Below are positions 25,062 through 63,806 of a DNA stretch of 64,000 bases, piece after piece. The notes under the pieces are model-generated. The model worked only from the letters and a program-made list of their open reading frames with translations. It did not search any database and was not told the DNA's origin. Every line of letters begins with the position of its first letter. Position 1 is the stretch's first letter. The stretch is from Streptomyces sp. NBC_00442 (lineage in GTDB: Bacteria > Actinomycetota > Actinomycetes > Streptomycetales > Streptomycetaceae), in contig NZ_CP107918.1 of NCBI RefSeq assembly GCF_036014195.1, positions 7,661,773 to 7,725,772 on the forward strand, in the 5' to 3' direction. Made by a program: the position numbers and the translations under genes.

Positions 25062-25070
25062 GACAAGACA

Positions 25071-48177: not shown

Positions 48178-48636
48178 GTGAGGACACCTGACGGGCTGGA
48201 TGAGTTTCGTTGGCGGTGGATGCTTCTTCGTCGTCCGAGGACCGAGTTGTTCTTCCTGCTGAATGCCGCGACGGGGCCTGCTGGTTTTCAGGATGTTCGC
48301 GTCTACGGCCGTGATGGGATTTCCGATGCGCGGCTGGTGTGGAAGGTCTGTCATCAGTGTGAGCGGGGCGTCATTTCGAAAATCTCGCTCTCTCCGGAAG
48401 TACAGCGGCAGGGTCTCGGCACACGCCTCGTCGACAGGGCGCTCCTGGACGGTCCCGGGTATCGCTGGACGACCAGCAGTCAGTCCCCGGATGGTCGGGC
48501 TTTCTTCCGGGCGATGACGGCACGTACCGGTGCCGAGTTCGCGGCGGGAGCTCGGACATGCGAGCACATCCTGGAGAGTCGGCCCGGACGTCATAGGCCA
48601 GTACTGGACCGGTGCCTGCACCGGGCGCGTCGCTGA
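48178..48636 (+). CDS. GNAT-like acetyltransferase-domain protein
   Basis: Starts at GTG 48178; 152 residues. The acetyl-CoA motif A is clear: 'ISKISLSPEVQRQGLGTRLV' (about residues 66-85, Q/RxxGxG loop), then 'GYRWTTSSQSPDGRAFFRAM' and 'TARTGAEFAAGARTCEHI', typical of small Streptomyces GNAT-like proteins. The last about 20 basic residues (after CEHI) look unlike the family and run into the next truncated gene, so a rearrangement probably replaced the end. Substrate unknown. Confidence 0.75.
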   Translation: MRTPDGLDEFRWRWMLLRRPRTELFFLLNAATGPAGFQDVRVYGRDGISDARLVWKVCHQCERGVISKISLSPEVQRQGLGTRLVDRALLDGPGYRWTTSSQSPDGRAFFRAMTARTGAEFAAGARTCEHILESRPGRHRPVLDRCLHRARR

Positions 48637-48639
48637 CTG

Positions 48640-49171
48640 TGACCCGTGCACGCCACCGCCGATCGCCTGGCGGCACCGCCCACCGCCCGTGCCTCTCACC
48701 GCGCCCACCGCCCAGCGAATCGCCCACCGCCTGCACACGGCGACCGCACATCCGCGCCTGGCCGCGGCCGTCGCCGCCGCGCTTTTCACCGGCGCCTCCC
48801 TCCAGCAACTCGCCACCGCACGCCCCCGCGACGACGACACCGCCGCGGCCACGCTCGCCCTGCACGACCGCGCCCGCTACACCGACGGCTGCGCCGCCCA
48901 CCCCATACCGCCCTGGGCCAGCGTCTTCCTGCGGGCCGCCGTCTGCTTCGCCCGGCTCGTCTCCAACGAGGACCAGGAACTGCTTGCCGCACCAGGTGAC
49001 CGCGGGCACCTGCTGCGCGTGGCGGAGACGGCCAGGCTGCGCCCGCCCCAGCCGCCCGCGGCCCGCCGCAAAGGCCCGGCCGGCCGTGTGGAGTGGGACT
49101 GGCGCGAGCGGCAGGAAGCCGAGCAGTACGAAGCCATGCCGACCAGTCGCGTCAGGCCCTCGCGACGCTGA
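48640..49171 (+). pseudogene. 5'-truncated paralogue of the third transposon gene (56111-57250)
   Basis: From about 48655 the frame matches the C-terminal half of the protein at 56111-57250: 'RIAHRLHTATAHPRLAAAVA' against IRRIHGATAHPRLAAALA, then a shared 'TDGCA' segment, 'PPWASVFLRAAVCFARL' against PSWSTVFLHAAARFTRL, and 'RVAETARLRPPQP' against RLAEEARLRPPQP. The N-terminal half is absent. Intact to its natural end at 49171, it faces the tpg paralogue. Confidence 0.75.
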
Positions 49172-49204
49172 ACCCCCTGACGCATTTCGCTCGAAGGGGA
49201 AGGC

Positions 49205-49762
49205 TCAACCGATCGAGAAGTCGGCGAACTCGACGTCGCTGAAAGCGATGTGCAGACCGGGGGCCCGCCGGCCCCCGTCACGGAAGTAGGCGTGTCCCAG
49301 AGCGCGAGCGAGGATCACCGTCTGCTGCTGCTCGCCCGCGCCGGCATCCCGGGCGGCGAACAGCTCCCGGGCCACCTCTCCCGGCAGGTCCTGGGTGATC
49401 CACCGCACCCGCGGATCGTCCGACGACCCTGCCGGAGCGGCGAACCCGAATCGCGCCCTGGTATGGAAGACGAAGCCCTCCGCCTCTGCCTGGGCGCGTC
49501 GACGGGCCCGTATTCGGGGCTGCCACCGGGCCAGGACCGCTTCCTCGATTGCCTGCACCTGCAGCGGACCCGGCGGACGACGCGCTCCTGGCTTCTTCGT
49601 CACCCACCGCTGCACGGTGCGCTGCGACACCTCCAGCACGGTGGAGACCTGCCGAGTGGAACCACCGTGTGATGCCAGCAGAAACCGCAGGCGGGCCTCG
49701 GTGCTTGCAGGAACGGGCCGGGTGCGTAACGCGCGCTCCAATCCCTGCTCGATCTGTCCCAC
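49205..49762 (-). CDS. tpg: Second telomere terminal protein (Tpg paralogue)
   Basis: From GTG 49762 the product is exactly 185 residues, the same length as Tpg at 25071, and this sets the start; GGAAAGG lies a few bases upstream. Landmarks align: HTH 'GSTRQVSTVLEVSQRTVQRW' (Tpg: GTRAVAQLLRVSQRTVERY), 'LARWQPRIRARRRAQAE' (KRWQPQIRARARQ), 'HTRARFGFAAPAGSSDDPRV' (TRARMGYTAPIGSTDQDRI), 'LGHAYFRDGGRRAPG' and the end 'DVEFADFSIG' (DIEHLEFGL). It has no tap partner and is clearly diverged, so it may serve a different telomere type or replicon end. Convergent with the truncated gene at 48640. Confidence 0.88.
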   Translation of the reverse strand: MGQIEQGLERALRTRPVPASTEARLRFLLASHGGSTRQVSTVLEVSQRTVQRWVTKKPGARRPPGPLQVQAIEEAVLARWQPRIRARRRAQAEAEGFVFHTRARFGFAAPAGSSDDPRVRWITQDLPGEVARELFAARDAGAGEQQQTVILARALGHAYFRDGGRRAPGLHIAFSDVEFADFSIG

Positions 49763-50154
49763 GTCCGCCTTTCCCAGCAGCCAGCCGACAGAGCCGGCAC
49801 CTGCAGTTCGTCGCCTCAATTCTCCCACGTCGTCTGCCCCCGCCTGCCAGTTTCCGCATTCTCGGGACAGCGCTGGCTGAGGCAAGCTATAAGCCCGTCC
49901 CGAACGCGGAGAACACCACCACCGCCTCGTCGTCGCCGACGAAGGAAAGAGCCGACGGCCGAGCCGCTATCCTGCCCGCAGGGCCGATGCCCTGGGCTAC
50001 GCCGACGCCCACACCGCACCCGGACACCCACACCGTCCGGAACACCGGTGGAAGGTCTTCCGGGATCAACGGACCGCTCGACGAACACCTTGACGATCCA
50101 TCGAGCCGGGGTTGCCGTGTGGGGGCGAGAACCCGGTGCCGAGAGGACCCGTCC
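49763..50154. other. Divergent promoter region
   Basis: No gene supported. Lies between the tpg paralogue and the gene at 50155 and should hold both promoters. Confidence 0.4.
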
Positions 50155-50733
50155 ATGACCAAACGCACTACCGAGCAGCAGCGCGCCCGCGAACTCCAGC
50201 GCACAGCACGCGAGCAGGGCACAAACCTCAGCTACCACGAAGCCCTCAACTGGGTACGCGCCACCGCCGAAGCGCGGGCTGAGAATCCGGGCAAGATCGC
50301 CATCTGCGTACCGCACGCGCACTGCATCATGATCTTCGGCGCGGACGAGGACCCCGAGTACATCCGTAAGTCGATCACACCGACTCCCGCGGCCGAAGTC
50401 GAGCTCGCCGATGAGCTCCTCCAGCGGAGGAACGCTCTGATGCGCGACCATTCCAAGGCGGAGATCATGGCCATGATCCTCAGGAGGCGGCGCGTTTCGC
50501 GCGCGGATCTCGCACGCTACACCAAGCAGGAGCTCGCCAACGATCTGGTAGACGGCGAGGACAGCCGCGAGCGCTATGAGGCGTACGGGCGGGTGGCGCT
50601 GATCAACGGCAGACCGCCGCGCGACTCACGATCTCTTTGCGGAGGCATCGGCTGCTCCGGCCACGACAGCGCGACGCCCTGGCCGCAAACCCGCGCGCGC
50701 TTCCGCGCCCAAGGGCCCTGCATCGGCGCATAG
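50155..50733 (+). CDS. Hypothetical mobile-element-associated protein, 192 aa
   Basis: Starts at ATG 50155 behind GAGAGGA. The N-terminal part 'TKRTTEQQRARELQRTAREQ' and 'NLSYHEALNWVRA' is of a type often seen in small Streptomyces plasmid and phage genes. Residues about 85-135 are helical and basic ('KAEIMAMILRRRRVSRADLA'). The last about 40 residues are low-complexity and may be out-of-frame tail. It converges on the truncated helicase. Function unknown. Confidence 0.65.
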   Translation: MTKRTTEQQRARELQRTAREQGTNLSYHEALNWVRATAEARAENPGKIAICVPHAHCIMIFGADEDPEYIRKSITPTPAAEVELADELLQRRNALMRDHSKAEIMAMILRRRRVSRADLARYTKQELANDLVDGEDSRERYEAYGRVALINGRPPRDSRSLCGGIGCSGHDSATPWPQTRARFRAQGPCIGA

Positions 50734-50748
50734 TAGCCCGAACGGCTT

Positions 50749-53481
50749 CTACGCCCTTGCCCATTCCAGTCCGAGCGCGGCGAGCGCGGCGAGTTGCTCC
50801 GCCGTGAGCTTGTCGCACCTCGACTTGGTGTTGGAGATCCATACGCCGAGCTTGACGACGACCGGTTCGGCCTCGCCGTCGACGAGGATCTGTTCGCTGT
50901 GGCCGCGTGGTACGGGCCGGTGGGCGCCTTCCCGTTCCACCCACTGCGTGAGGGCCGTGAGGCCGCGCTGGAACGTCTGCTGTGCCTTGCCGGGCCCCTT
51001 CGTTGCGCGCCCTGCCCCCGGGGCGGCAGCGGGTGCCTGGACAGGTTGTACGCCCAATGCGGCCAGCCGTTCCCGCTGCTCGGGCATCAACTGCGCCCAG
51101 GTGCCCGGCTCCTGCTGCCGCCACCGCCACGTTCCGATGTCATCGCCCTCGAAGGTGACGCCCGGCGCGATGTGGGGGAGGTGGCCGTCGGCGTCGACCA
51201 GGTTGGCGAGGACGCGGTAGTGCCGCTGCCAGTTGAGTGACCAGGGGCAGTTCCAGTCGGGGTCGATCCCGGTGAGCTGCTGCGCGCGCACGGCGGCCCG
51301 CTGCGGGTCCTTGCCGAGGCCGCCTTTGCGGCGGAGGTTGGCGAGGAACTGTCCGATGGCCAACTGCTCACTGTCACTCTCGCCTTCGCCCCACATCGCG
51401 TCCTGGCGGGGTGCGAGGTGCCCGGTGGCCCGCCGATAGGACCGCAGGGCGGCGAGCTTGCTCTCCCACGCTTCCTCGCCCGGCTCCCAGAGCATGCCGG
51501 CCTCCGGTGCGTCCAGCAGCGTCTTGCGCCGCTCCTCCAGCTCGCCCGCCCGCAGCGCCTTCCGCTGCTGATGCACCCAGCGGCCAAGCGGAAAGGACTT
51601 CGTGACGCCGACTTCGACCTCGGTGTCGTAGGGGACGGCGTGGACGCCGGTGATCTCGTTCTCCTTCCGCCAGCGGATGAGGGCCTGGTAGCCCTCCAGC
51701 CACACGAGGCTTTCCGGCCGGTAGACCCGGGTCCGCAGGAACGCGGCGATCGTCGCGGCGTCGCGCGGGCTGGAGAAGTGGAGCAGGGCGGCTTCGGCGG
51801 CGTCAGTGTTGTCGTCGTGCTCTTGGTCCTTGGCGTCGTCCGCGCCGCCGGCCCCGACGATCCGCCCGTCCTCGTCACGCTGGAGGTGGACCTTGCGCTT
51901 GCCGCTGGTGAGCGCGCGGGAGGCGAGCTGCTCGACCAGGCGCTCATCGTGGCTGCGCAGGCCCTGGAGGACGGCCACGAGGGGCTTGAAGCTGGCGGAG
52001 GCGACCATGTCGCTGGGGTCCTCGTTCGGCTCCAGGAATACCGGCACGATGATTCTGGCGACCTTGGTGGAGCCGTCCTTGTTGAGCCGGAGCGCTCGGC
52101 CGATGTTCTGCACGATCTCCACCTGGGAGCCGCGGGTGTCCGCGAAGCAGATCGAGTCGACTCCCCGCTCGCCGGTGATGTCGACGCCTTCACCGAGGAC
52201 GCGGCAGCTGGCGAGGAAGGCGCGGTGCACCCGGTGCCCGGACGCGTCGATGCCGCCTGCGAACTGGCGCAGGGCCTCGCGGCGTTCGGCGACGGTGTGG
52301 TCGCCGCACAGCCATGCCGACCAGACGCGGTCCGGCGGGACGTGGCGGCCGGCCTCCAGCTCGTAGAAGGCCGCGTCGATGGACGATGCGGGGAGGTTGT
52401 CGGCGGCGGCCAGGTCGGCGTCGGAGGCGTCGTTGGCGTACAGCGCGGCTGCGGTCTCGGGGAGCTTGTCAGCGAACGCGCGGGCCTCTTCGACCTTCTG
52501 GTGGAACGTCATGACCGTACGGAGGTTGTACGCGGCGGCGTGCTCCAACAGGGCGGTCTGCAACAGGGCCAGGCGCCGTCCCCGCCGCGCCTCCTCAGAC
52601 TCCCCGAGAACGGGCGAGGGATCACGGATCTCCAGGACGTCGATCTCGAACCCCGCGAGGATCTCGCGTTCGATCGCCTCCGACAGCCCGAGCTCCGTGA
52701 GCCACGCGCCGTAGGTGCCGTCCGGGGCGTCGGCCATGGTCGCGATCTCTGCCTCCTGCCCGTCCTCGCTCTTCTGCGGGCGGGCTGCGGCGAGGATGCG
52801 CGGTGTGGCGGTCAGGTAGAGCCGGAAGTCCGCCGGGATACGGGCGTTGTCGTGGATCGCCGCCCACGGACGGCCAAGATCACCAGCGGTTCCGTGGGCC
52901 TCATCCACGATGGCGAGGTCGAACCGGTCCATGCGCTGTCCGTAGAGGCGCTCTCCGCCCGCCAGAGCGGCCTCCAGCGGCCCGCGAACCTTCCGCTGGC
53001 CCTCGGCGTCGATGTCCTCGCGGTCCACGAGTGAGGCGTACGTGGCGAACACGACTACGGGCCCGTGTCCGGCCCACAGGGCGAGCTGGATCGGGTTGGT
53101 GGTGGTGCGCACCCCGAGCGAGTTGAGGACGGCGTCGTTCTCCAGCGAGCACACCGCGACCATCGGCGCCCGGTGGCCCACCGCCCGCCACGCCTGGGCG
53201 GTCTGCGCGAGCAGGTCCAGGGTCGGCACGGTCACGAGGATCCGGCCGTCTGCGAAGCTCTCCAGCGCGCACGCGGCGGCCGTGATCGTCTTGCCCGAAC
53301 CGGTCGCTGACACGATCGTGCCCCGGGCACCCTGCGGGGGCACGGATGACCTTGCAGGGAATCCCACCCACTTCCTAAACGCGGACCGCTGGTTGGGGGA
53401 TCTCGGTGGTCTGACCGGGTAGTTTCTCGTTTTGTTGTCCAGTGATCGTTTTGTGTACTTGGCCAACTTGGTTGTTCTCAT
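50749..53481 (-). CDS. Telomere-type DEAD/DEAH helicase with HA domains, N-terminus lost
   Basis: The open frame gives about 910 residues from ATG 53481, but authentic sequence begins only around 'PPQGARGTIVSATGSGKT' (about 53345). The motifs are Walker A SATGSGKT, 'VTVPTLDLLAQT', DEAH in 'DLAIVDEAHGTAGDLGRP', 'LYLTATPR', and helicase C motifs ('GEGVDITGERGVDSICF', 'VQNIGRALRLN'). C-terminal helicase-associated repeats have the W...GH...P...LG.W..NxR pattern. The 'LRxHQxEAV' Q-motif present in the paralogue at 57368 is missing here, replaced by sequence from the adjacent transposon-end region. This layout is that of TtrA-like subtelomeric helicases implicated in Streptomyces plasmid transfer. 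Probably a 5'-truncated pseudogene. Confidence 0.82.
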   Translation of the reverse strand: MRTTKLAKYTKRSLDNKTRNYPVRPPRSPNQRSAFRKWVGFPARSSVPPQGARGTIVSATGSGKTITAAACALESFADGRILVTVPTLDLLAQTAQAWRAVGHRAPMVAVCSLENDAVLNSLGVRTTTNPIQLALWAGHGPVVVFATYASLVDREDIDAEGQRKVRGPLEAALAGGERLYGQRMDRFDLAIVDEAHGTAGDLGRPWAAIHDNARIPADFRLYLTATPRILAAARPQKSEDGQEAEIATMADAPDGTYGAWLTELGLSEAIEREILAGFEIDVLEIRDPSPVLGESEEARRGRRLALLQTALLEHAAAYNLRTVMTFHQKVEEARAFADKLPETAAALYANDASDADLAAADNLPASSIDAAFYELEAGRHVPPDRVWSAWLCGDHTVAERREALRQFAGGIDASGHRVHRAFLASCRVLGEGVDITGERGVDSICFADTRGSQVEIVQNIGRALRLNKDGSTKVARIIVPVFLEPNEDPSDMVASASFKPLVAVLQGLRSHDERLVEQLASRALTSGKRKVHLQRDEDGRIVGAGGADDAKDQEHDDNTDAAEAALLHFSSPRDAATIAAFLRTRVYRPESLVWLEGYQALIRWRKENEITGVHAVPYDTEVEVGVTKSFPLGRWVHQQRKALRAGELEERRKTLLDAPEAGMLWEPGEEAWESKLAALRSYRRATGHLAPRQDAMWGEGESDSEQLAIGQFLANLRRKGGLGKDPQRAAVRAQQLTGIDPDWNCPWSLNWQRHYRVLANLVDADGHLPHIAPGVTFEGDDIGTWRWRQQEPGTWAQLMPEQRERLAALGVQPVQAPAAAPGAGRATKGPGKAQQTFQRGLTALTQWVEREGAHRPVPRGHSEQILVDGEAEPVVVKLGVWISNTKSRCDKLTAEQLAALAALGLEWARA

Positions 53482-53630
53482 GGGGTGTTGTGTGTTGCTG
53501 ATGGGTGTGTCGGTTGGACGGGGAGTGGGGGTCGGCTGGTCACTGGGTGAGGATTGGCTGGTCAGTGAGCTGAGGGTTCCAAGTGGGGTAGGGTTTTTTT
53601 GATCGTTTAGGGGTTCGGTGTGCCCGGACT
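53420..53630. other. Candidate transposon end upstream of the TnsB-like gene
   Basis: A T-rich strip unlike its surroundings. It contains TGTTGTCCAGTGATCGTTTT (53436-53455) with the TGT start typical of Tn7-like ends, a second GATCGTTT at 53601, and two direct copies of GGCTGGTCA-C/G-TG about 20 bases apart near 53532 and 53552, as expected for TnsB-binding sites. The matching other end was not found. Confidence 0.45.
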
Positions 53631-55235
53631 GTGTGTCGGGGGTGCCGGGTGGGGTCTGTTGAGTCTGTGGCGGATGTGGGTGTGTTGCGTCCGGTGGCGG
53701 TACGCAGGCTGCTGGCCCTGGAGAGTCGGGGTGAGTTGACACCGGCGCATAGGCGGATGGTGGCGCAGACGCTTGGGACGTCGGAGCGGACGGTCCGCCG
53801 CTGGCTTACCGCGGCTCGCGCGGAGGATCGTTTCGGCCCCGCGGTACGCGAGCGGTTTGTTGTCACGCCGGGGGTGTTGAAGCTGTTGGCGTTCCATCGT
53901 GGGAACGCGGCTGCGCTCCACCGGGAGCTGGTCACCGTGGAGGCCGGGGGAGGGGCGCAGGCGCCGTCGCTCGCGACGTTGTACCGGGCCATAACGAGGG
54001 ATGTTCCGCCGGGCCAGTGGGCCGGGCTCAGGGGTGGGGAGAGCGCCCGCCGGGCCCATGACGTGTTCCTTCAGCGCCCGGTGGGGCATCGCAACGAGGT
54101 GTGGGAGAGCGATCACGTCCAGGTGAAGGTGGACGTTGATATCGATGGCCGTCCGGGGCGTCCGTGGGTGACCTGGTTCATCGACTGTGCGACGCGGGTG
54201 ATCTGCGGGTTCGCGGTGACCGCGCAGGTCCCGAGTCGGGAGTCGGTCCTGGTCGCGCTCAGGGACGCGATATCCCGTGAAGGGGAGCACGGCCCGTTCG
54301 GTGGCCTGCCGGGGGCGGTACGGGTCGACCGGGGGAAGGACTTCCTGTCGAGGGCGGTGGGTGAGGCGTTGGGCGCGTTCGCAGTCCCGGTCATCGACCT
54401 TCCCGCCTACAGCCCGCATCTGAAGGGCACGGTGGAGGCGTTGAACAAAGCCGCGAAGCAGATGTTCTTCGCTCAGCTGCCTGGTTACACCGCAGCTCCG
54501 CGTTTGAAGGGCGGCAGGAAGCCGTCCGCCGGGCAGCGGCTGCTGCCGCTGGAGGCGTTCGTTGAGCTGCTGGGGCAGTGGGTGGCCTGGTGGAACACCG
54601 AGCACGACCTCCGCTCGCTGGCCGGCAGGACCCCGCAGGCGGCGTGGGAAGCAGATCTGACTCCCATCGAGGACGCTGAGCCGGGCGCGCTGCACATGTT
54701 CACCCTCGAGGACGACGGCCGGGCGCGCACTCTTACCGGCAAGGGGGTGCGCTGGCGCAATCGCCACTACGTCGATGCCTGGATGACCGGGCAGGCCGGG
54801 CGGAAGGTGCGGCTGCGTTACATGCTGCACCACGAGCACGAGATCGAGGTCTACGACGCAGTGACGGGCCGGCATCTGGGGTCGGCGTACCTGTCGAACC
54901 GGGCGAGTGCGGAGCAGATCCGGGAGATGAAGCGGTCCCGCGCCAGGGAGGCCGACCGGCTCAAGCGGCTGCTTACGGCGGCGGAGAAGGACCGGGGCAC
55001 TCGCTACGCGGCGGCTACCCGCGGCACACCGGCCGAGGTGCTCGGTACCGTCACCGAGATGGAGGCCGAGGTACATCTGCGCGCGGCTGCCGCCGCGGAC
55101 CTTACCGAGGTGGCGCTGCCCGGCTACCTGCCGCTGTCCGCCCAGATGCCCGCGTCCTGGACTGCACCGGACACGGTCAAGCCGACTGCTCCCCGCCCCG
55201 AAGACGAAGACGAGAGCATCCTTACGCCGCGATGA
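53631..55235 (+). CDS. TnsB/TniA-like DDE transposase
   Basis: About 534 residues (start uncertain; GTG 53631, or GTG 53667). An N-terminal helix-turn-helix ('AQTLGTSERTVRRWLTAARA') is followed by an rve/RNase-H catalytic core: first Asp in 'EVWESDHVQVKVDVDIDGRP', second in 'AVRVDRGKDFLSRAV', Glu in 'SPHLKGTVEALNKAAKQMFF'. The C-terminal part has the Mu-transposase beta-barrel signature ('RTLTGKGVRWRNRHYVDAWM', 'EIEVYDAVTGRHLGSAYLSN'). This is the arrangement of the Tn7/Tn5053/Mu family. The gene overlaps the ATPase gene by ATGA, so the two are translationally coupled. Confidence 0.9.
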   Translation: MCRGCRVGSVESVADVGVLRPVAVRRLLALESRGELTPAHRRMVAQTLGTSERTVRRWLTAARAEDRFGPAVRERFVVTPGVLKLLAFHRGNAAALHRELVTVEAGGGAQAPSLATLYRAITRDVPPGQWAGLRGGESARRAHDVFLQRPVGHRNEVWESDHVQVKVDVDIDGRPGRPWVTWFIDCATRVICGFAVTAQVPSRESVLVALRDAISREGEHGPFGGLPGAVRVDRGKDFLSRAVGEALGAFAVPVIDLPAYSPHLKGTVEALNKAAKQMFFAQLPGYTAAPRLKGGRKPSAGQRLLPLEAFVELLGQWVAWWNTEHDLRSLAGRTPQAAWEADLTPIEDAEPGALHMFTLEDDGRARTLTGKGVRWRNRHYVDAWMTGQAGRKVRLRYMLHHEHEIEVYDAVTGRHLGSAYLSNRASAEQIREMKRSRAREADRLKRLLTAAEKDRGTRYAAATRGTPAEVLGTVTEMEAEVHLRAAAAADLTEVALPGYLPLSAQMPASWTAPDTVKPTAPRPEDEDESILTPR

Positions 55236-56044
55236 ATGCCATACCTGCCGCTCGCCCCTTGCCGGCCCGCCCGCGACGCGGCCCGCTCCCGTCGCCGCGC
55301 AAGGACCACTACTTGTCGCTGCCCGACGCGCACGTGATGGGCACATCGGCGTTGAAGGAGACGCTGGCCAATCTCGGGGAGGTGATCGCCGCGCGCGGGA
55401 TGATGTGTGTCTACGGGGCGGCGGGGCTGGGCAAGACGATGTCGGTCAACGCCTCGCTGCGGGAGCTGGCGCCGGGCGCGACGCGCCGGATTGAGTTCCG
55501 AGGCCGGCCCACCGTGCTGGACATCCGACACAACCTGTTCAACGTGCTTGAACTGCCGGGCAGCCCGCCCAGGCAGCCGACCGCGTTCGACACCCTGCTG
55601 AAAGACGTGCTGGCCGAACAGTTCCGCGTGCTGGTCTGTGATGAGGCGCAGTGGCTGCGGGAGGAGTCCTTCGAGTACTTCCGGCACCTGTTCGACGACC
55701 TGTACACCGATATCGCGGTGGTCTTCGTCGGCGGCGGCAACACCTACGACGTGCTGAGCCGCAAGGACATGCTGGCCTCCCGGGTGCACATCTGGCAGGA
55801 GTTTCGTCCGCTGACCCGCGAGGAGGTCCTGACCACGATCCCCGCCTACCACCCGGTGTGGCACGGCGTGGATGGCGATGACCTGCTGTACTGCGATGAC
55901 GTGGCCGCCCATGGCGTCTTCCGCACCTGGGCCAAGATCACCTACCACTTGGGGCGGGCCCTGGATGCCACCCCGGATCTCGAGGTCAACCGGGACCTGC
56001 TGCGCTGGGTCTTCAGCAAGCTCGGCCGCCGCACCCGGCCGTGA
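55232..56044 (+). CDS. TnsC/TniB-like AAA+ transposition ATPase
   Basis: A 270-residue ATP-dependent regulator that in Tn7-like systems forms filaments on target DNA and activates the transposase. Walker A is 'CVYGAAGLGKTMSVNASL' (about residues 60-77), Walker B 'FRVLVCDEAQWLREESFEYF', then 'IAVVFVGGGNTYDVLSRKDM' (sensor I), 'LASRVHIWQEFRPLTREEVL' (arginine finger) and a C-terminal lid helix. Starts at ATG 55232, overlapping the transposase stop by four bases. Length and order (TnsB then TnsC) fit a compact Tn7/Tn5053 core. Confidence 0.92.
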   Translation: MNAIPAARPLPARPRRGPLPSPRKDHYLSLPDAHVMGTSALKETLANLGEVIAARGMMCVYGAAGLGKTMSVNASLRELAPGATRRIEFRGRPTVLDIRHNLFNVLELPGSPPRQPTAFDTLLKDVLAEQFRVLVCDEAQWLREESFEYFRHLFDDLYTDIAVVFVGGGNTYDVLSRKDMLASRVHIWQEFRPLTREEVLTTIPAYHPVWHGVDGDDLLYCDDVAAHGVFRTWAKITYHLGRALDATPDLEVNRDLLRWVFSKLGRRTRP

Positions 56045-56110
56045 GTACTTCCGGACCCGTCCGCATCTGCCCGCCGCACCCTGGCGCCGACGAAACGACG
56101 CCGGAGACCT

Positions 56111-57250
56111 GTGAACAACACATTCCCTGATGTCACCGTCCTGCTCGACCCCAGTGACGACGCTGCTGTGACCCGTGCGGCGCTCGCCGGGCACGACCCG
56201 GCGGCCGGCTGTGTCACCGTCCACCCCACGCCGGGTACGACCAGCGACCGCTACTTCGCCCACGACCTCCTGGTGGCGCTGGGCAAACCCGCGCACCTCC
56301 CGGGCTTCCCAGATGCGCGCGCCCCGGTGTGGGAGGCCGCCACAGCCTGGCTAGCGGCGCTTCCCGTAGAACGCCTGACGATCCTTCGTGCTCACCTGCT
56401 CACCCGAATCCGCCTGCAACGCCTGCTCGACCTGCGGGCGTTCACCGGAGCGCACCTGGTCCTGGTGTGCCACCGCTCCCGTCCGACCGCTGCCCTGCGC
56501 GACGCTCTCACCGACGTGCCCCACACGCTCGTCCAGGCTTCGGCCGCCGGCGACCTCCTCGCCGGGGCGGCCGCTCCTGGCCCGGACCGCCCCGCCGTGT
56601 CGCCGCGGGCTGCCGGCCGCTGGATCACCGTGCCGGCGCTTCAGCGGCTGGCGGAATGGGACGGTGAGGACCACTGCATCGGATGCCTCCCACCGCCGAT
56701 CAGATGGCGCTACCGGCCCCGACCGCGGCCGTGCTCGTCACAGACCACCGCGGAGATCATCCGCCGCATCCACGGCGCCACCGCACACCCCCGTCTCGCT
56801 GCCGCGCTGGCGGTAGGGGTCTTCACCGGCGCCGCTGGGCAGCAACTGGGCACCGCGCGCCTGGCGGACTGGCGCGAGGAAACCTCCACCCTGGCCTTGC
56901 ACGACCCCCTCGGGCAGACCGACGGCTGCGCCACGCACCTCGTTCCTTCCTGGTCGACCGTCTTCCTGCACGCCGCTGCCCGCTTCACCCGCCTCACCCC
57001 CGCACCCGGCACACCCCTGCTTATTCGTCCCGAGGAGCACTCCGGCCTGCTTCGGCTCGCCGAAGAGGCCCGGCTGCGCCCACCCCAGCCCAGCGCTGAC
57101 CAGGAGCGCGGCACCGTTCCTGCTCGCGGGATCGAGTGGTTCTACCGCGAGCTGACAGAGTCAGGCATCGACGCAGAGGCCCCCCAGCACACCCGGCGTC
57201 CGCGTCTGCGTGTACGGCCTGTCAACAAGCCCCAGGCCAGCACATCATGA
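56111..57250 (+). CDS. Third gene of the Tn7-like operon, unknown family (possible target selector)
   Basis: A 379-residue soluble protein starting at GTG 56111 with GGAGA upstream, 66 bases after the TnsC-like gene and therefore in its operon. The N-terminal half (1-170) has an alternating beta-alpha pattern ('TSDRYFAHDLLVALGKPAHL', 'VERLTILRAHLLTRI', 'GAHLVLVCHRSRP') like a P-loop fold without a Walker A. The centre has a CxxC near 'DHCIGCLPPPIRWRYR', and the C-terminal half (220-340) is helical ('IIRRIHGATAHPRLAAALAV', 'LRLAEEARLRPPQPS'). It is not recognisably TniQ, but its place corresponds to the target-choice factor of related elements. A truncated paralogue lies at 48640-49171 beside the second tpg. 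Confidence 0.72.
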   Translation: MNNTFPDVTVLLDPSDDAAVTRAALAGHDPAAGCVTVHPTPGTTSDRYFAHDLLVALGKPAHLPGFPDARAPVWEAATAWLAALPVERLTILRAHLLTRIRLQRLLDLRAFTGAHLVLVCHRSRPTAALRDALTDVPHTLVQASAAGDLLAGAAAPGPDRPAVSPRAAGRWITVPALQRLAEWDGEDHCIGCLPPPIRWRYRPRPRPCSSQTTAEIIRRIHGATAHPRLAAALAVGVFTGAAGQQLGTARLADWREETSTLALHDPLGQTDGCATHLVPSWSTVFLHAAARFTRLTPAPGTPLLIRPEEHSGLLRLAEEARLRPPQPSADQERGTVPARGIEWFYRELTESGIDAEAPQHTRRPRLRVRPVNKPQASTS

Positions 57251-57367
57251 CCAGGCCACGCGGAACCCGCGTGAACTGCTTGCCCTGGGCCGAGGCTGCG
57301 GGAGCCGCCGAGCGCGCGTGGACGGAAGGGTGTGCGCGCGGCGCTGCGGTGGGCCCGGCTGCCGGCT

Positions 57368-59725
57368 TCAGTTCCAGCGCATGTCGAGAGCGTTGAGCGC
57401 GTCGATGCGCTGCGGGTGCAGTCTCGCTCGGCGGGAGCGCTGGTTGGCGATCCATATCCCGAGTTTGATCTCGGTACCGCCGGTGATCTCCACATGCTGG
57501 CGGGGGACGTTCAGGTGTCCTTCGCGCCGGGCGTAGCTGGCCGCAGCGGCGAGGTTCCGCGCGAACTTGTGGTCTGGAGCGAGACGCGGCGCGCTCTGGA
57601 TGCCGCCACCACTGGGCGTCACGCTGAGCTCAGCCAGCAGCCGGCGCTGTTCCTCGTGGAGGGTGTCCCAGTTGCTGCGCTGGTGGGCCAGCCAGGCACC
57701 GACGTCTTCTCCGGCAATCATGTGACCCGGCTCGATTTCCGCTATCTCTACCGGTCCTCCCGCGGCGAGGTACCGCTTGAGGAGTGTGAAACGGCGCTGC
57801 CACACCAGCGGCCACGCGGGGCACCAGCACGGGTCCACGTCGGCCAACGCCGTCTTGCGCGTGTTGGACAACGCGCCCTTGCTGCCGACGGCAAGGCGTG
57901 CCTCCCGGCGCCGGTTGGCCAGCCACGTTCCGACCGGATAGCCGTCCATGACGGCGTCGTGCCCGGCCGCGAGGTGGCCGTGGACGGCATGGTAGGCGCG
58001 GGCCATCGACAGCCCAGCGCTGAATACATGGTCGGGGTGGCTCCACACCATGCCCAGCCTGGTCAGCGCGTCGATGCGTACGGCAGGCAGGCGGCCGGTC
58101 TTGTTGGCCTTGCGCTGCTCGGCGATCCACTGGCCCAGCGGAAATGCCCCGTCCTTGCAGAGGTAGGGGACGTTCAGGTGGCCGCGGGTCGCGTGAAAGC
58201 GGCGGGCGGCCGTCCAGCCGCGCAGCCACCCGCGGCGCTCTACGTTGATCACCCGCAGCCTGACGAACTCCGCGATGTCAGCGGGATGGCGGTCGGTGGC
58301 GAACAGCAACGGCCCCTTGGCCAGTGGGGCCGCGCCCGTGTCGTCCCCGCCGGGCCAGGCGGCGAGCCGGTCGATCACGTCAGTGTCGTGGGCGGCGAGC
58401 GCGGCCAGGACCTTGACCAGCGGCAGATACGAGCCGGATGCCAGCCAGTCCTCGCAGCGCTCGTCGGGGGACAGGAAGACCGGCACCACCAGGGAGGCGA
58501 CCTTGTCACCGCTGGGCCCCTGCCGCAGCGCGCGTCCGACCGTCTGGACGGTGTCGACGATCGACTCCCTGGGGTCGGCGAAGACCACCGCGTCCACCTC
58601 GGGGATGTCCACCCCCTCAGCCAGCACCCGGGCACTGGAGAGCACGCAGCGTTCCACCACCACCCCGTCCGCGCCCCAGCCGCGGGCGAACTGGGCCAAC
58701 ACGTCGCGCCGGTGAGCCATGCCATGGTCGCCGTGCAGCCAGCCGGACCACACCCGACGCGGATAGATCGCCGGATCCACGGCCCAGAGCTGACGGGAGG
58801 CGCCCGGCGATGCCTCGGCAAACGCGCGGGTGTCCGCGACGCGGTGATGGAACGTCATCACACGGTCGAGCTGATGGGCGGCCGCGGCTTTGAGTACGGC
58901 TGTGGTCAGCGCTTCCAGCCGCGCCGCGGCCACATCCACCTCCGCGCGCTCCTCACCCGCCGCCCCCGGCGCCAGGGCCTGGTCGCGGATCTCCATCACG
59001 ATGATCTGGTAGCGGGCCAGCAGCCCGCGGGCGATGGCTTCGGCCAGCGTCAGCCGGTACACCACCGGGCCGAACGTCGTCTCGTCGTCCATCGAGGCCA
59101 TCAGTGCCGGCCCGCTTGCGGCCTCGTCATCCCCGTCGTCCACCGCGGCCCAGGGATCGGCCACCCGCGGCGTCGCCGTCAGATACAGCCGGCGGTCCGC
59201 CGGCAGCACGGCATCGTCATGGACCGCGGCCCACGGCTTGCCCCACGGGCCCGACGTGCGGTGCGCCTCGTCCACCACCACCAAGTCCCACCGCCGAAGC
59301 CCCGAGGCGTGAGCCTCGGTGAGCACCGGCAGCGACGCGTAGGTGGCGAACACCGTCACCCGCCCCTTCCTGCCAGCCCACGCCGACAGGAGCCTCGCGT
59401 CAGTAGTGCAGCGCACCCCGGCGGCATCCAGCTCCGCGTCCGCCCGCAGCGAGCAGACCGCCACCATCGGTCCCACCCGGCCCGCCTTCCGCCAGGCGGC
59501 GACCGTCTGCACCAGCAGATCCAGCGTCGGTACCAACACCAGCACGCCACCTGTGCGCGCCACCCGCAAGGAGATGTGCGCTCCCATGAACGTCTTTCCC
59601 GTCCCGCACGCCGAGACCACCGTGGCCCGCAGACCTCCGCTGGCCGGCGGGGTGCCTGCCAAGGCGCGCGCCGCCGCGTCCACCGCCTCGACCTGATGCG
59701 CCCGCAGTACTGGCCCGCCCTGCAC
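57368..59725 (-). CDS. Telomere-type DEAD/DEAH helicase with helicase-associated domains, complete
   Basis: A 785-residue superfamily 2 helicase. All parts are present: 'VLRAHQVEAVDAAARAL' (Q-motif-like), Walker A 'VVSACGTGKTFMGAHIS', 'LVLVPTLDLLVQT', DEAH in 'WDLVVVDEAHRTSGPWGKPW', 'LYLTATPRVADPW', helicase C 'AEGVDIPEVDAVVFADPRES' with 'TVQTVGRALRQG', then HA repeats ('RGHLNVPYLCKDGAFPLGQW', 'HLNVPRQHVEITG', 'KLGIWIANQRSRRARL'). HA-repeat helicases of this type lie next to Streptomyces telomeres (TtrA-like) and are implicated in end-related conjugal transfer. It converges with the third Tn7-like gene and is a paralogue of the truncated helicase at 50749. Confidence 0.92.
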   Translation of the reverse strand: MQGGPVLRAHQVEAVDAAARALAGTPPASGGLRATVVSACGTGKTFMGAHISLRVARTGGVLVLVPTLDLLVQTVAAWRKAGRVGPMVAVCSLRADAELDAAGVRCTTDARLLSAWAGRKGRVTVFATYASLPVLTEAHASGLRRWDLVVVDEAHRTSGPWGKPWAAVHDDAVLPADRRLYLTATPRVADPWAAVDDGDDEAASGPALMASMDDETTFGPVVYRLTLAEAIARGLLARYQIIVMEIRDQALAPGAAGEERAEVDVAAARLEALTTAVLKAAAAHQLDRVMTFHHRVADTRAFAEASPGASRQLWAVDPAIYPRRVWSGWLHGDHGMAHRRDVLAQFARGWGADGVVVERCVLSSARVLAEGVDIPEVDAVVFADPRESIVDTVQTVGRALRQGPSGDKVASLVVPVFLSPDERCEDWLASGSYLPLVKVLAALAAHDTDVIDRLAAWPGGDDTGAAPLAKGPLLFATDRHPADIAEFVRLRVINVERRGWLRGWTAARRFHATRGHLNVPYLCKDGAFPLGQWIAEQRKANKTGRLPAVRIDALTRLGMVWSHPDHVFSAGLSMARAYHAVHGHLAAGHDAVMDGYPVGTWLANRRREARLAVGSKGALSNTRKTALADVDPCWCPAWPLVWQRRFTLLKRYLAAGGPVEIAEIEPGHMIAGEDVGAWLAHQRSNWDTLHEEQRRLLAELSVTPSGGGIQSAPRLAPDHKFARNLAAAASYARREGHLNVPRQHVEITGGTEIKLGIWIANQRSRRARLHPQRIDALNALDMRWN

Positions 59726-60016
59726 CTACGCCCCCATTCACCTGCGCGAACTGGCTTCCCTGCCTGCCGGCTCGTAGCGTACGAACGATGCCCCACCAGG
59801 GCCAACAGCGATCCGGCCCACAGCCCCTCTCGGGCGTCCGGATACAAGGCATTGACGACGCCGTCGCCAAGACCGCCTGGGTTTCTACTGGTCAGGTCCT
59901 GCCACGAAGTGAGGGGATATGCGTGTGTCGCATGCGTCCGCGGATGCTGGTGCATGCGGGCTCGAAACCCCACGGCCACAGACGTCTGGTGGGGAGCATG
60001 GATCGGGGTGGGGCTC
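59726..60016. other. Intergenic, divergent promoters
   Basis: No gene supported; lies between the divergent helicase and the sigma-like gene and probably holds both promoters. Confidence 0.45.
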
Positions 60017-60961
60017 GTGACAGGTGGTGCGTACGAGGAGCTGCAGACCGGCGGCTTCGGGCCGGCCACGTTCGATCTGTTGTGGCGGCTGGTGCATCAG
60101 GTGCGTCGTGCCTACGGATTTCCACCGCCTGAGGGCTACGCACAGTGGGGCAACGAAGCTGCTTATGAGGTGGTTTTGGCGATGGTGACCGCCAAGGGGC
60201 AGAAGTTCGTGACCCGCTGCTTCACGCTTACGGCAGACCAGGAATCCCTGGAACGCGTACTTCTCACCTCCATTAAGAACTACCTCATCGACGAAGCGAA
60301 GAAGACCCCCCGCGGCAAACTGCGGCGCCGTATCGCCCGGCTGATGGGCGAGGACACGGCCTACCGCAAGAGCAACGGCTCCCCGCCGCGTTGGGCGCTG
60401 GCCGACCACCCCGAAGAAGCCCTCTGGCAGGGGGACCTCGACGATCTCATCGCCCATGCCGCGCACGTCAGAGGCGTCGGCATCACCCGCTGGAACCATT
60501 CCGGCCCAACGCCCAAGCAGACCGTGCACGCCCTCAAAACCATCCTGCTCTGCGTGCTGCAGCACGCACAGGGAGCGGTAAGGGAGGAAGACCTCGCAAA
60601 GGTTCTCGAGTCCCGCTTCGAGCTCTTGGCACCGGCCCGCGTGACCCGGCTGTTCGCCGATGAGGGGACCGTCGCCGCCATCGTCGAGCAGCATGCGGCC
60701 ACTACCGCGCCGGACCCGACCGGGACGGAGGGGATCGCCGAGGACATCTGGCAGCGACTCTCACCCAACGAGCGCCTGCTGCTTCCCTACCTCGACAAGG
60801 ACGCGCATCACGCGGCGCAGCTGCTGGAGATCCGGCAGGGCCACGCAGTGCTTGTCCTGTCCAACCTCAAGACCATGCTCCGCGATGCCCTGTCGTTGGA
60901 CAGCGACCTGCAGGCAGTGATGGCCGCGCTACTGAGGCGTTGCGAAGAGGCTGCGTCGTGA
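60017..60961 (+). CDS. Sigma-70-like DNA-binding protein
   Basis: About 314 residues from GTG 60017 (GTG 60008 also possible). Residues about 40-115 look like a sigma region 2 ('RVLLTSIKNYLIDEAKKTPR', 'GKLRRRIARLMG'), and the C-terminus like a region 4/HTH ('LSPNERLLLPYLDKDAHHAA', 'LLEIRQGHAVLVLSNLKTML'). A linker with 'RWALADHPEEALWQGDLDDL' separates them. It is first in a rightward series with the next two genes (80 and 22 bases apart) and is likely a regulator of this locus. The sigma-like call is by pattern and is not certain; it could be a diverged ECF-like or anti-sigma-controlled factor. Confidence 0.65.
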   Translation: MTGGAYEELQTGGFGPATFDLLWRLVHQVRRAYGFPPPEGYAQWGNEAAYEVVLAMVTAKGQKFVTRCFTLTADQESLERVLLTSIKNYLIDEAKKTPRGKLRRRIARLMGEDTAYRKSNGSPPRWALADHPEEALWQGDLDDLIAHAAHVRGVGITRWNHSGPTPKQTVHALKTILLCVLQHAQGAVREEDLAKVLESRFELLAPARVTRLFADEGTVAAIVEQHAATTAPDPTGTEGIAEDIWQRLSPNERLLLPYLDKDAHHAAQLLEIRQGHAVLVLSNLKTMLRDALSLDSDLQAVMAALLRRCEEAAS

Positions 60962-61041
60962 ACGGCCCCAGTTACGTCGTCTGGACCCAGTGAGAAGAGA
61001 ATGCGCTGATGGACCGCAGCCGAGGAGACGGGGGAGACAGC

Positions 61042-61950
61042 ATGAGCTCTGTCCACACCACTGCCTACCAGAGGCTGGTAGCCGCCGCGGCGGGCCTGAG
61101 GGTGCCCGACGCCGTCTACCAGGTGGCCACCGCACCACCCCAGGACCCCTGCCCCGGCCACATCTGGCGTGCGGTGTGGGAAGGCACCGTCCAACTGCTT
61201 CTGATCACTACCACTGGTGCCGATGACACCGTGCGTGCCGTCCCGGTCTCCTTCGAACGGTACGCCGACGCCGACACGCTGCTCCTGCCCGCCCAGGCGA
61301 CCACTTTGGAGCAGCCACTTGCACTTTGGTGGGGCCTGGAGACCGACGTGCCGTGGTGTGTGCTGGACCGGCAGGTCAGCGAACTGACCAGCCGCCCCGG
61401 CGCCCTCACTCCCCGGACGATCGCAGACACCGTGACCGGCGCCCAGTGGGGGAGCGGTACCGTCTTGTCCGCGGCGGCCAGCGAGTACCGTGCCACCCTC
61501 ACCGACCACGTGGAGGTCCTCGCCTCGGCACGGTGGGCCCCGCAGGGGTCGGGGGGCCTCTCTCAGGTGTTTCGTGATCACGACATCACCATCCAGCATC
61601 TCGCGGCCGAACTGAAACTGCCGCCACCCCTGGCGCTGGACGTGTGGAGGGGCCAGCAGCCCCTCTCCGCCGAACAGGCCGCCACGCTCGCCGCACTCCA
61701 CGACCAGCCCGCCGACCACTTCCTCGACGCCAACCCCGCCCTACCGCCCACCGTCGTACACGAACTCAACCGGCCCCTGCGTCGCAGCCAGGTCAAGAAG
61801 CTCGCCGCTCAGTACGGCGAAACCGAACACGCCGCCCGTCTGCGCGCCGCCTACGGTGTCTACGCGCTCGCGGCACGCGAAGAAAACCGCACCCAGCCGA
61901 ACTGGACTGCACGCACCGACCGCTACTTCGAACTCCTCCTGGACGAATAG
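61042..61950 (+). CDS. Regulator-like protein upstream of ImmA/IrrE peptidase
   Basis: 302 residues from ATG 61042, behind GGGGGAGA (ATG 61009 would add 11). The N-terminal 150 residues are beta-rich ('GHIWRAVWEGTVQLLLITTT', 'RYADADTLLLPAQATTLEQP'). From about 185 a helix-turn-helix-like segment follows ('HDITIQHLAAELKLPPPLAL', 'VWRGQQPLSAEQAATLAALH'), resembling XRE/HigA-type proteins. The next gene is an ImmA/IrrE peptidase 22 bases on; such pairs usually consist of a repressor and the protease that cleaves it, so this is probably the repressor/substrate. No exact family recognised. Confidence 0.65.
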   Translation: MSSVHTTAYQRLVAAAAGLRVPDAVYQVATAPPQDPCPGHIWRAVWEGTVQLLLITTTGADDTVRAVPVSFERYADADTLLLPAQATTLEQPLALWWGLETDVPWCVLDRQVSELTSRPGALTPRTIADTVTGAQWGSGTVLSAAASEYRATLTDHVEVLASARWAPQGSGGLSQVFRDHDITIQHLAAELKLPPPLALDVWRGQQPLSAEQAATLAALHDQPADHFLDANPALPPTVVHELNRPLRRSQVKKLAAQYGETEHAARLRAAYGVYALAAREENRTQPNWTARTDRYFELLLDE

Positions 61951-61972
61951 AGAAGAGAGAGGTACGCCCGAG

Positions 61973-62998
61973 GTGGTCAACTACGTGCTCGCCGGCGCCG
62001 CCCGGATCCAGGCCGCCGCCATAATCACAGAACTCGACGCAGCCCGCCCCGGCGCCATCGAGCGCCTGACACAAGGCGCCCTCGCAGAATTGCGGATCTG
62101 GCCCGAGCTCACAGTCAAAGACGTTCCCGAGAACGAGACGGCACCAGGCTGCAGCGTTGCCGGAGCGTACGACTACGGCCCCCCACCTCGCTTGTCCATC
62201 GCCACCTCCGCCAGCCACGCACGGCGGGACTTCACCGCCCTGCACGAACTCGGTCACCACCTGCAGAAGACCAGCTTCGACCTCATGGAGCCCTTCAGCA
62301 GGGAAGCCGACGGCGGCGTCCTCCTCGAAGACGCCGCCTGCGACGCGTTCGCCGCCCAGATCCTGATCCCCACGCACCTCGTCGAGCAGCACGTGGACGC
62401 CGTAGGGCCCACCGCCTCAGCGATCACCCGCCTGTGGGAGTCGAGCAGCGCCTCCCGCATGGCCGTCTGCGTGCGAGCAGCCCAGTACCTCCCCGCCCCC
62501 GGTCACGTTCTTCTCCTCGACCCTGACGGACACCTCGCTTTCGCCGCCTCCCACGGCCTGCCACCCCTGCGGCGCGGCAGCTTCCAAGGCGACATCCCCG
62601 TCATCGACCGAGCCCTGACCGGCTACGGCCGCGCGCAAGGACGAACCCAGATCCGCTACCGCGACGGCATCCTTGGACGCGAACTGCACACTGACACCGC
62701 CCCCATGGGCGGCTACACCGTCGCCGTGCTCGTCACCGACTCCGCCCCCTGGCGCGCCTTCACCCCACCCACCCCCGACACCGGCCCCCAGTCACGCAAC
62801 TACGACTGCGCGAACTGCGACGAGCACTACCGTTCCTTCGAACCCGCCTGCCCGCGCTGCCGCGTTCCCCGATGCCCCGACTGTGGTCGCTGCGCCTGCC
62901 CGCTCCGCACCCCCGGCCGCACCTGCCCAGGATGCTTCATCGTGCATCCGCCCGCCATGTTCCCCACGGACAGCGGCCGCTGCCTCGACTGCTCCTGA
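61973..62998 (+). CDS. ImmA/IrrE-family metallopeptidase with C-terminal zinc ribbons
   Basis: 341 residues from GTG 61973. The zinc peptidase motif HELGHH lies at about residues 90-95 ('DFTALHELGHHLQKTSFDLM'), with a downstream 'LEDAACDAFAAQILIPTHLV' holding the third ligand Glu/Asp, as in ImmA/IrrE enzymes that cleave XRE or DdrO-type repressors after a stress signal. Unusually, the C-terminus (about 280-341) adds many CxxC pairs ('NYDCANCDEHYRSF', 'CPRCRVPRCPDCGRCACP', 'TCPGCF'), i.e. two to three zinc ribbons that may sense or bind nucleic acid or protein. The gene directly follows its presumed repressor and precedes the ubiquitin-like genes. Confidence 0.88.
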   Translation: MVNYVLAGAARIQAAAIITELDAARPGAIERLTQGALAELRIWPELTVKDVPENETAPGCSVAGAYDYGPPPRLSIATSASHARRDFTALHELGHHLQKTSFDLMEPFSREADGGVLLEDAACDAFAAQILIPTHLVEQHVDAVGPTASAITRLWESSSASRMAVCVRAAQYLPAPGHVLLLDPDGHLAFAASHGLPPLRRGSFQGDIPVIDRALTGYGRAQGRTQIRYRDGILGRELHTDTAPMGGYTVAVLVTDSAPWRAFTPPTPDTGPQSRNYDCANCDEHYRSFEPACPRCRVPRCPDCGRCACPLRTPGRTCPGCFIVHPPAMFPTDSGRCLDCS

Positions 62999-63154
62999 CA
63001 CCCCGTAGGGCTCGCCCGCCACGTACTCCCGGCTACCCGCGAGTTACGTCGTCCGTCCCAGGCGAAGCACCCCACCCAGGGTGCTCACGGAACCCGGGCG
63101 CCGGTCGCGGGAACCCGTTGGAGCGTTGCCGGCAGGAACGGCAGGAACAGCAAC

Positions 63155-63439
63155 ATGGCTATCCAGATCACCGCGGTGCGCCTGACGGCCGGCGGCACCA
63201 CGCACGAGCACATCACCCACCTGTGGTGGACCAACCAAACCTCCGGCGACACCGGCAACAGCACCCGGGCGCAGATCGTCGACTGGATTGAGAACAAATC
63301 CGGCAAGGCCTACACCAGCGACGCGGCTGGACACCGCACGGAGGTCGCCGTCGTCACGCCCGCCCGGGGCGAGAAGCACCTGCGGACCCACGCCGACGGC
63401 GTATGGACCAACAACCTCCTCGCCCTTCCCCGGCGCTGA
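63155..63439 (+). CDS. DUF3892 protein
   Basis: A 94-residue protein starting at ATG 63155 after GGCAGGAACAGCAAC. It matches the small DUF3892 fold: 'AIQITAVRLTAGGTTHEHIT', 'HLWWTNQTSGDTGNSTRAQI', then 'VDWIENKSGKAYTSD', 'TEVAVVTPARGEKHLRTHAD' and 'GVWTNNLLALP'. Function of the family is unknown; it is often found near ubiquitin-like or toxin-related loci. It lies 156 bases after the peptidase and 106 bases before the multiubiquitin gene, in the same direction. Confidence 0.8.
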   Translation: MAIQITAVRLTAGGTTHEHITHLWWTNQTSGDTGNSTRAQIVDWIENKSGKAYTSDAAGHRTEVAVVTPARGEKHLRTHADGVWTNNLLALPRR

Positions 63440-63545
63440 CCCGCCACCGTCGACCGGCCGTCTGACGCGCCGCCCACACGGCGGCGCGCCAGACGCCCCG
63501 GCACCCACCACTCTGAACACACGCTCCCCACTTCAGGAGGACCCC

Positions 63546-63806
63546 ATGTCCCAGGAAACCCACGGGCACAAGTCCGTCACGATCATCGTCAACGCCCGTC
63601 CCCACACCTGGGAGGCGAAGGAGATCACCTACGAGCAGGTCGTCGACCTCGCCTACCCCGGCCAGCAGCCGAACGAGCAGGACACCTACACCGTCCGCTA
63701 CAGCCGCGGCCACGGAGGCCACGGAACGGGCAGCCTCACCGCCGGCCACAGCGTCCGAGTGAAGAAGGAGATGGTCTTCGATGCCTACCGGACCTCTCGC
63801 TCGTGA
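63546..63806 (+). CDS. Multiubiquitin-like domain protein (ubiquitin-fold modifier)
   Basis: An 86-residue protein from ATG 63546 with AGGAGG upstream. It is a single beta-grasp unit: 'SVTIIVNARPHTWEAKEITY', 'EQVVDLAYPG', 'DTYTVRYSRGHGGHGTGSLT', 'AGHSVRVKKEMVFDAYRTS'. This is the pattern of bacterial multi-ubiquitin-like proteins that serve as the modifier in ThiF(E1)-E2-JAB conjugation operons. Here there is one domain and no diglycine at the end, so a processing or non-covalent role is possible. The next gene (E1-like) overlaps it by 26 bases. Confidence 0.82.
   Translation: MSQETHGHKSVTIIVNARPHTWEAKEITYEQVVDLAYPGQQPNEQDTYTVRYSRGHGGHGTGSLTAGHSVRVKKEMVFDAYRTSRS

Follow-up and report, generated by a model that had tools for sequence, protein, structure and literature searches.

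The stretch of DNA analysed here, termed the window, is the final 64 kb (G000:C1:7661773-7725772) at the right end of a linear chromosome that is assembled as a single contig of 7,725,772 bp; the named close relatives of the source genome are Streptomyces. The outer part of the window carries a Tn7-like, probably telomere-borne element, the visible part of which spans positions 53394..64000. Its inner junction is defined by ttrA homologues and by homology to the element end of Streptomyces sp. WAC 01529, and its telomere boundary lies beyond the assembly.

The element starts with its unique transposon end (53394..53630, +), which begins TGGGGGATCTCGG and has the same spacings as in the two closest relatives. 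Next is a gene for a TnsB-like DDE transposase of 534 amino acids (53631..55235, +) with rve and Mu-transpos_C domains. The protein matches a solved TnsB at E 1e-15, and residues D161, D233 and E269, read from the motif positions, have DD35E spacing. A gene for a TnsC-like AAA+ ATPase of 270 amino acids (55232..56044, +) overlaps tnsB by four bases (ATGA); Walker A (GAAGLGKT) and Walker B are both intact, and the sequence match to ShTnsC is weak (E 0.04). A third gene (56111..57250, +) completes the operon. A first-pass annotation of this DNA had described translationally coupled TnsB-like and TnsC-like genes followed by a third gene, and the domains, the match to the solved TnsB and the four-base overlap bear this out. 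The complete paralogous helicase that it had placed on this side is also present: a complete HA-domain (TtrA-type) helicase of 785 amino acids (57368..59725, -), which is kept in the closest relative.

On the inner side of the junction lies an older TtrA-type helicase gene (50749..53393, -), the first ~12 codons of which are replaced by the element end, as seen in alignments of ttrA homologues. Further inward are a tpg gene (49205..49885, -), which scores 189 bits against the NCBIfam Tpg profile NF047541 (cut-off 90) and has no tap beside it, and an adjoining third-gene remnant (48635..49165, +) that covers residues 188-372 and is 51% identical. The tapless tpg and the truncated third gene had both been recognized correctly at first pass.

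A perfect terminal inverted repeat of 11,625 bp (52375..63999) is the reverse complement of chromosome positions 1-11625. This repeat had not been seen in the first-pass annotation, nor had a tap-tpg pair described below. The tnsB, tnsC, third and complete helicase genes, all outward of 52375, are duplicated, with one set per chromosome end, and the repeat extends 1,019 bp inward past the element end. The telomere of the source strain is absent from the assembly, and the final contig base falls within a DUF6791 open reading frame. Folding of the terminal 180 nt of the contig is no better than that of inner DNA (z -0.1), in a test that is weak, as genome G067, with clear palindromes, scores just -1.4 and -1.6; the contigs of G226, G094 and G228 begin with palindromes (fold z -2.1 to -3.3). 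The archetypal telomere motif gave no match in the 54 loci searched.

The element end and the ttrA junction

The junction is located by homologous ttrA loci. In the 29 inspected (30 rows minus the source genome itself) the DNA alignment halts between 53370 and 53393, at 53391 in 11 loci and at 53393 in six, and the closest ttrA homologues continue ~12 codons past the junction to a start codon. The defined end of the element is 53394 (±4), between codons ~12 and 13 of the older ttrA-type helicase, with few bases in common at the junction. Of 295 sampled genomes of the genus, 229 have a match (E <= 1e-3), often a weak one, to a 941-bp stretch across this junction. The helicase had been described as truncated exactly at this strip. 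The 29 loci support a cut at the strip, but the gene is not simply truncated, for its reading frame is open into the element end, with an open reading frame to 53742. The lost first ~12 codons may have been replaced by element-encoded residues, and the older gene may still yield a helicase.

On the closest ttrA contig (92%), homology to the source genome sets in at the counterpart of 53391, and the 1,194 bp distal to this point have no match in that genome. Within limits that are considered below, this comparison indicates that the distal ttrA flank was lost.

The closest relative of the element is found in WAC 01529, where TnsB is 81% identical. This strain has the same element (99.9%) at both chromosome ends with different flanks, and the common block begins TGGAAGTTTTCGCG. 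In the window, TnsB-site-like 20-mers are present at 53399 and 53423, 24 bp apart, and CTGGTC words at 53536/53558, 22 bp apart. Both pairs are also found, at these spacings, in WAC 01529 and in Ncost-T10-10d (L139), and alignment of the paired sites across WAC 01529, L139 and the window places the window's end at 53394. A search for TnsB-binding repeats at 53420-53630 had been proposed at first pass; of the site-like words, the copy at 53399 is weak. A repeat search found no direct repeats at 53340-53720; the paired sites emerged only on comparison with relatives. A single-site scan of the window revealed no inverted TnsB-like site elsewhere above the shuffle maximum of 16.6.

Gene order points to an older layer on the inner side of the junction. 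In relatives, a recurrent order is tnsB-tnsC-third gene, then back-facing tpg and TtrA helicase genes, then the contig end (L095, L111, L117, L118 and L120). Sets of tnsB, tnsC and third gene thus occur with tpg elsewhere, a point raised for checking in the first-pass annotation. Inward of 53394, the window has the same order minus tnsB and tnsC, i.e. third-gene remnant, tpg and ttrA. On the strength of this match to the relatives' layout, the cut ttrA, together with the tapless tpg and the shortened third gene, is best interpreted as what is left of an earlier, identically arranged element that the present one struck. All three had earlier been taken as parts of the element itself, a view that is not supported, since they are inward of the end at 53394 and their order fits an older element. 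It had also been held that tpg and helicases outside an element inserted in ordinary sequence would speak against a link to telomeres. The tpg gene and one helicase are indeed outside, but the flank is ttrA, and measurement in four relatives puts the counterpart of the insertion site 1,127-1,468 bp from the contig end. Three of these four contig ends start with a palindrome, which we take to resemble the archetypal telomere.

A tpg search of the genome (E <= 0.01) detects two genes, and the window holds both: the tapless gene and another that is linked to a tap-like gene. The latter belongs to a pair, a tap-like gene (22599-25061) and tpg (25071-25628), that spans 22599..25628 (+) and lies outside the element, 38 kb from the contig end. 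The tap-like gene was called by its place before tpg and a helix-turn-helix domain, with no tap profile run. The Streptomyces terminal genes ttrA, tap and tpg are thus all represented in the window, by HA helicases, a Tap-like gene and Tpg; in several relatives ttrA and tpg sit between tnsB and the contig end, inside the unit. Among relatives, some units have tpg without tap, some have the tap-tpg pair and some have both (L117, L098), and the unit of WAC 01529, which is 58.9 kb if it reaches the contig start, contains tap-tpg. The present element, as far as it is assembled, shows no tpg, though relatives carry such genes inside theirs; if it brings its own terminal protein, as first suggested, the gene would lie beyond the contig end. 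The ttrA gene flanks most streptomycete replicons, according to PMC8743542.

Units shared between replicon ends and their interpretation

Nine strains were compared in which the same unit is present on at least two replicon ends with differing inner flanks. In seven of the nine (G067 with four ends, G051, G199, G232, WAC 01529, G234 and G140) a TG-starting end upstream of tnsB is 0-6 nt from the point of divergence. The break is exactly at the TG end in G051, G199 and WAC 01529, and comes before it by 2 nt in G140, 5 nt in G232 and 6 nt in G234 (plasmid). That of G117 falls within a run of G. Comparison of C1 with C2 of G234 was dropped as a junction, its divergence falling inside tnsB. In G067, an 11.9-kb block that is at least 99.94% identical is found on both chromosome ends and on both ends of a 223-kb plasmid (L042/L177 and L043/L178; C1 and C2). 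The block spans the palindromic tip to TGTGATTGGGCG (within 1 nt), and four different flanks follow; the terminal inverted repeats of this strain are the transposon itself. As judged by these sequence comparisons, what moves in relatives consists of a single transposon end together with the telomere.

In G067, G051, G232, G234 (plasmid) and WAC 01529, and also in G117 (plasmid), subject to the doubt over the G run, the terminal repeat stops on its inner side at the transposon end or a few bases from it. The repeat runs past the element end by 1,019 bp in the source genome, and through the whole 20-kb stretches compared in G199 (chromosome) and G151, which points to later arm recombination. Streptomyces ends are described as changing fast (PMC8627663), arm recombination is an accepted force on terminal inverted repeats (PMC8627663; PMC8743542), and recombination has been invoked to account for the exchange of telomeres and terminal repeats (PMC8743542).

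TnsB relatives are found in 130 of the 295 genomes at E <= 1e-3. From that list, 53 strong matches, distributed over 29 genomes and on contigs whose length is known, were typed by position. The distance to the contig end is <20 kb for 31 of them, <50 kb for 41 and <100 kb for 44; 41 of the 48 within 200 kb point outward, and all typed matches are within 50 kb of an end in 19 of 27 chromosomes. As a control, other rve matches were located in 15 of these genomes, and 11 of 108 are within 50 kb. The clustering of TnsB relatives is therefore not merely a property of chromosome arms. At E <= 1e-20, TnsB relatives are also present on 184 plasmid records, including 72 from Streptomyces, 13 from Rhodococcus, 12 from Clavibacter, 11 from Sphingobium and 11 from Acetobacter. 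That the transposon is tied to the ends of linear replicons, as first suggested, is upheld: the Tn7-like element occupies both ends of the source chromosome, and in relatives it sits at both ends or on each of two replicons.

As the best explanation we favour, with a probability of about 0.85, the view that the locus is a telomeric transposon, in which a Tn7-like unit is bounded on one side by a TnsB-recognised end at 53394 and on the other by the chromosome tip. A number of observations weigh against it. The outer boundary is unseen in the source genome, the telomere of which is unassembled. Terminal sequences diverge fast, and a missing match to the flank of one relative is therefore limited proof of loss. 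The window's own sites were among the six from which the binding-site matrix was built, and the site at 53399 is weak, with a score of 15.7 versus the shuffle maximum of 16.6. The 1,019 bp flank common to both chromosome ends means that at least one copy did not come from independent insertion. Seven of the 48 TnsB matches within 200 kb point inward, further matches are 57-161 kb in (G093, G091, G068, G193), and four of the 27 chromosomes have deep matches (G110 at 530 kb, G253 at 334 kb, G118 at 3.97 Mb and G007 at 4.7 and 5.0 Mb from the contig end). A ttrA match lies 31 kb from one of the deep G007 matches, which suggests that the G007 record may be rotated. The third-protein profile is found downstream of tnsB in just 60 of 82 loci with room, some of which are duplicates. 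Finally, a TniQ profile (PF06527) has 0 matches in the source genome at E <= 0.01, but control genomes are also without a match above cut-off, so that the sensitivity of this search is unproven.

Could the element be an ordinary two-ended transposon of the Tn7/Mu-like kind that is near the chromosome end by chance? Its TnsB and TnsC are Tn7-like, variable and mobile DNA is known to abound in Streptomyces arms, and a second end could have escaped notice because the contig stops early. A weak inverted match to the binding site is indeed present at 63327, near the contig end, with a score of 13.3 versus a mean shuffle maximum of 13.0. Yet this falls short of the shuffle maximum in the single-site scan, the distal ttrA flank has no match in the genome, and TniQ is likewise without a match. 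The common unit in relatives reaches the contig end, which in G067 is a palindromic tip, and TnsB relatives cluster terminally far more than other rve transposases do. We consider a two-ended element unlikely. Marginally less probable still is that the block passed between chromosome ends and linear plasmids by homologous recombination (telomere exchange), with the transposase genes as passengers. This would accommodate the continuation of the inverted repeat for 1,019 bp beyond the element end, the accepted role of arm recombination noted above, and strain G088, in which the common block starts without TG. However, recombination is not expected to stop at a TG-starting end every time, whereas in seven of nine relatives the common block starts within 6 nt of such a sequence upstream of tnsB, against unrelated flanks, four of them in one strain. 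That only few bases are in common at the ttrA junction also speaks against it.

For a telomeric transposon, the following course of events can be proposed. TnsB would nick and join the single end. The third protein may steer TnsC, with a dead TnsC-like module that docks on TnsC and a dead tyrosine-recombinase-like module that binds DNA, and TnsC so steered would choose a target close to a linear end. On joining of the unit end to the target, everything distal would be replaced, and the transposon's telomere would become the new tip. The present element would have entered between codons ~12 and 13 of ttrA in an older element of the same layout (third gene-tpg-ttrA-tip), at a distance from the old tip that four relatives put at about 1.1-1.5 kb. 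Arm-to-arm recombination probably then produced the copy at the other chromosome end, as suggested by the flank common to both copies. The junction can thus be read at near base resolution as a telomeric transposon that replaced the old tip, on top of an apparent older layer. Several relatives have a terminal repeat whose inner limit coincides, to within a few bases, with the transposon end. Such elements may help explain how linear Streptomyces chromosomes renew and copy their ends.

Telomeric transposons are said to have Tn7-like machinery, one defined end, and the telomere as the other end. By this definition, the source element shares TnsB and TnsC (the latter with its weak match of E 0.04), one specific end and a location at a linear end; the telomere as other boundary is seen in the relative G067, while the source contig stops short. 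The element is filed as a new member of this class. Telomeric transposons of bacteria have already been published (Hsieh et al., 2025, Science 387 eadp1973, as cited in later papers), so that the reports of Tn7-family elements at Streptomyces telomeres mentioned in the first-pass annotation do exist, according to those papers. The I-E5 CRISPR-associated transposon (CAST) found in telomeric transposons lacks TniQ-TnsD, as stated in a CRISPR classification paper (PMC12669027). Beyond such citations, the literature search surfaced nothing on the third protein, on insertion into ttrA or on a repeat border that equals the transposon end; Hsieh et al. may describe them. That work may or may not cover the pseudo-TnsC/pseudo-recombinase third protein, insertion into the ttrA of an older layer, or multiubiquitin as cargo.

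Other systems show partial similarities. Tn7 and type V-K CAST likewise have a DDE transposase and an AAA+ regulator in one operon, but they have TniQ/TnsD, where the source genome has no TniQ match and the element has the third protein instead. Tn7-like elements and CAST have two inverted ends, in contrast to the one end found in the assembled part of the source element. Phage Mu (MuA/MuB) has the Mu-transpos_C domain in common, and the first domain of the third protein has a predicted MuB-like fold; unlike Mu, the block is without recognised phage genes, shows one end and is terminal in location.

The third protein as candidate target selector

The third protein is 379 amino acids long and was characterized by AlphaFold models, structure searches and alignments. 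Residues 3-144 are predicted to form a TnsC-like AAA+ fold without Walker A/B; both models and structure searches give an AAA+ fold of the TnsC/MuB kind, and MuB is among the best structural matches. Residues ~208-330 are predicted to form a degenerate tyrosine-recombinase-like domain, a fold that was also found in both the models and the structure searches. Of 26 aligned sequences, 25 cover the place of the P-loop, and it is missing in all 25. The position of the Walker B acid, placed by eye, is Arg in all 26, the window's sequence included. Arg and Tyr belong to the catalytic residue set of tyrosine recombinases; in an alignment of 20 third-protein sequences, neither is found among the invariant or near-invariant columns, where two His are conserved. 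At the sequence level the protein has no match in Pfam and none in NCBIfam, and a comparison with PDB sequences gave nothing below E 0.1 (one match at 0.12). The predicted fusion of a pseudo-TnsC to a degenerate tyrosine-recombinase-like domain is possibly a new feature.

The tyrosine-recombinase-like phage repressors MrpR, YopR and SroF have the fold predicted for the second domain, and they bind DNA without recombining. Unlike in these repressors, the recombinase-like domain of the third protein is fused to a TnsC-like domain and encoded in a transposase operon.

As no TniQ was detected in the genome, the third protein is the best candidate for the target selector. It may represent a new type of selector for Tn7-like elements that lack TniQ, in which dead TnsC-like and dead tyrosine-recombinase-like modules read telomere-proximal DNA or the Tap/Tpg complex and steer one-ended transposition to tips. 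We hold this proposal tentatively, at odds slightly below even. It would offer a concrete, testable candidate for the means by which a Tn7-like element without TniQ finds chromosome ends. If it is true, elements would pile up at ends through repeated insertion, terminal inverted repeats would arise in this way, and ttrA and tpg would be disseminated as genes of a transposon.

With respect to loci that lack the third gene, separate profiles for the two halves of the protein were used to search 19 of 22 such loci, together with L046, for a hidden copy; the only match was in L046, which is not on the list of loci missing the gene. In L051 (G038:C2), a related terminal element, the position behind tnsC holds two tyrosine-recombinase-like open reading frames (1765-2937 and 3669-4745), one with recombinase-like catalytic motifs and the other apparently degenerate, from a reading of the translation by eye. 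TnsB relatives in L085, L090, L092 and L094 have a more distant third protein; they point inward and are 1-31 kb from ends.

Cargo genes and variant arrangements

Between the element helicase and the contig end are six open reading frames on the plus strand, considered as cargo. The first (59924..60961, +) encodes 345 amino acids and has no family above cut-off, and the second (61009..61950, +) has a weak HigA-antitoxin-like match, below cut-off. These are followed by genes for an IrrE-like peptidase domain protein (61856..62998, +; Peptidase_M78, 5.5e-5) and a DUF3892 protein (63155..63439, +; 2.8e-16). A multiubiquitin protein (63546..63806, +; Multi_ubiq, 4.7e-15) and a DUF6791 protein (63781..64000, +; 6.1e-20), the latter interrupted by the contig end, are the outermost. 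The multiubiquitin and DUF6791 genes thus sit as cargo near the chromosome end (63155-64000), and are presumably part of a bacterial ubiquitin-like conjugation operon.

Operons of relatives show further variation. Upstream of tnsB, the loci L039, L042, L097, L111 and L118 have an additional gene with a match confined to the N-terminal domain of TnsB, together with another TnsC-like gene. In L040 (G199; 5078-6712 and 6898-8031), an element with a second TnsC-like protein and an open reading frame that is Tap-like by eye is present on both the chromosome and an 85-kb plasmid. In L111 (G092:C1), tnsC is split by ~3.5 kb of sequence (6872653-6876133) with two further rve transposase matches.

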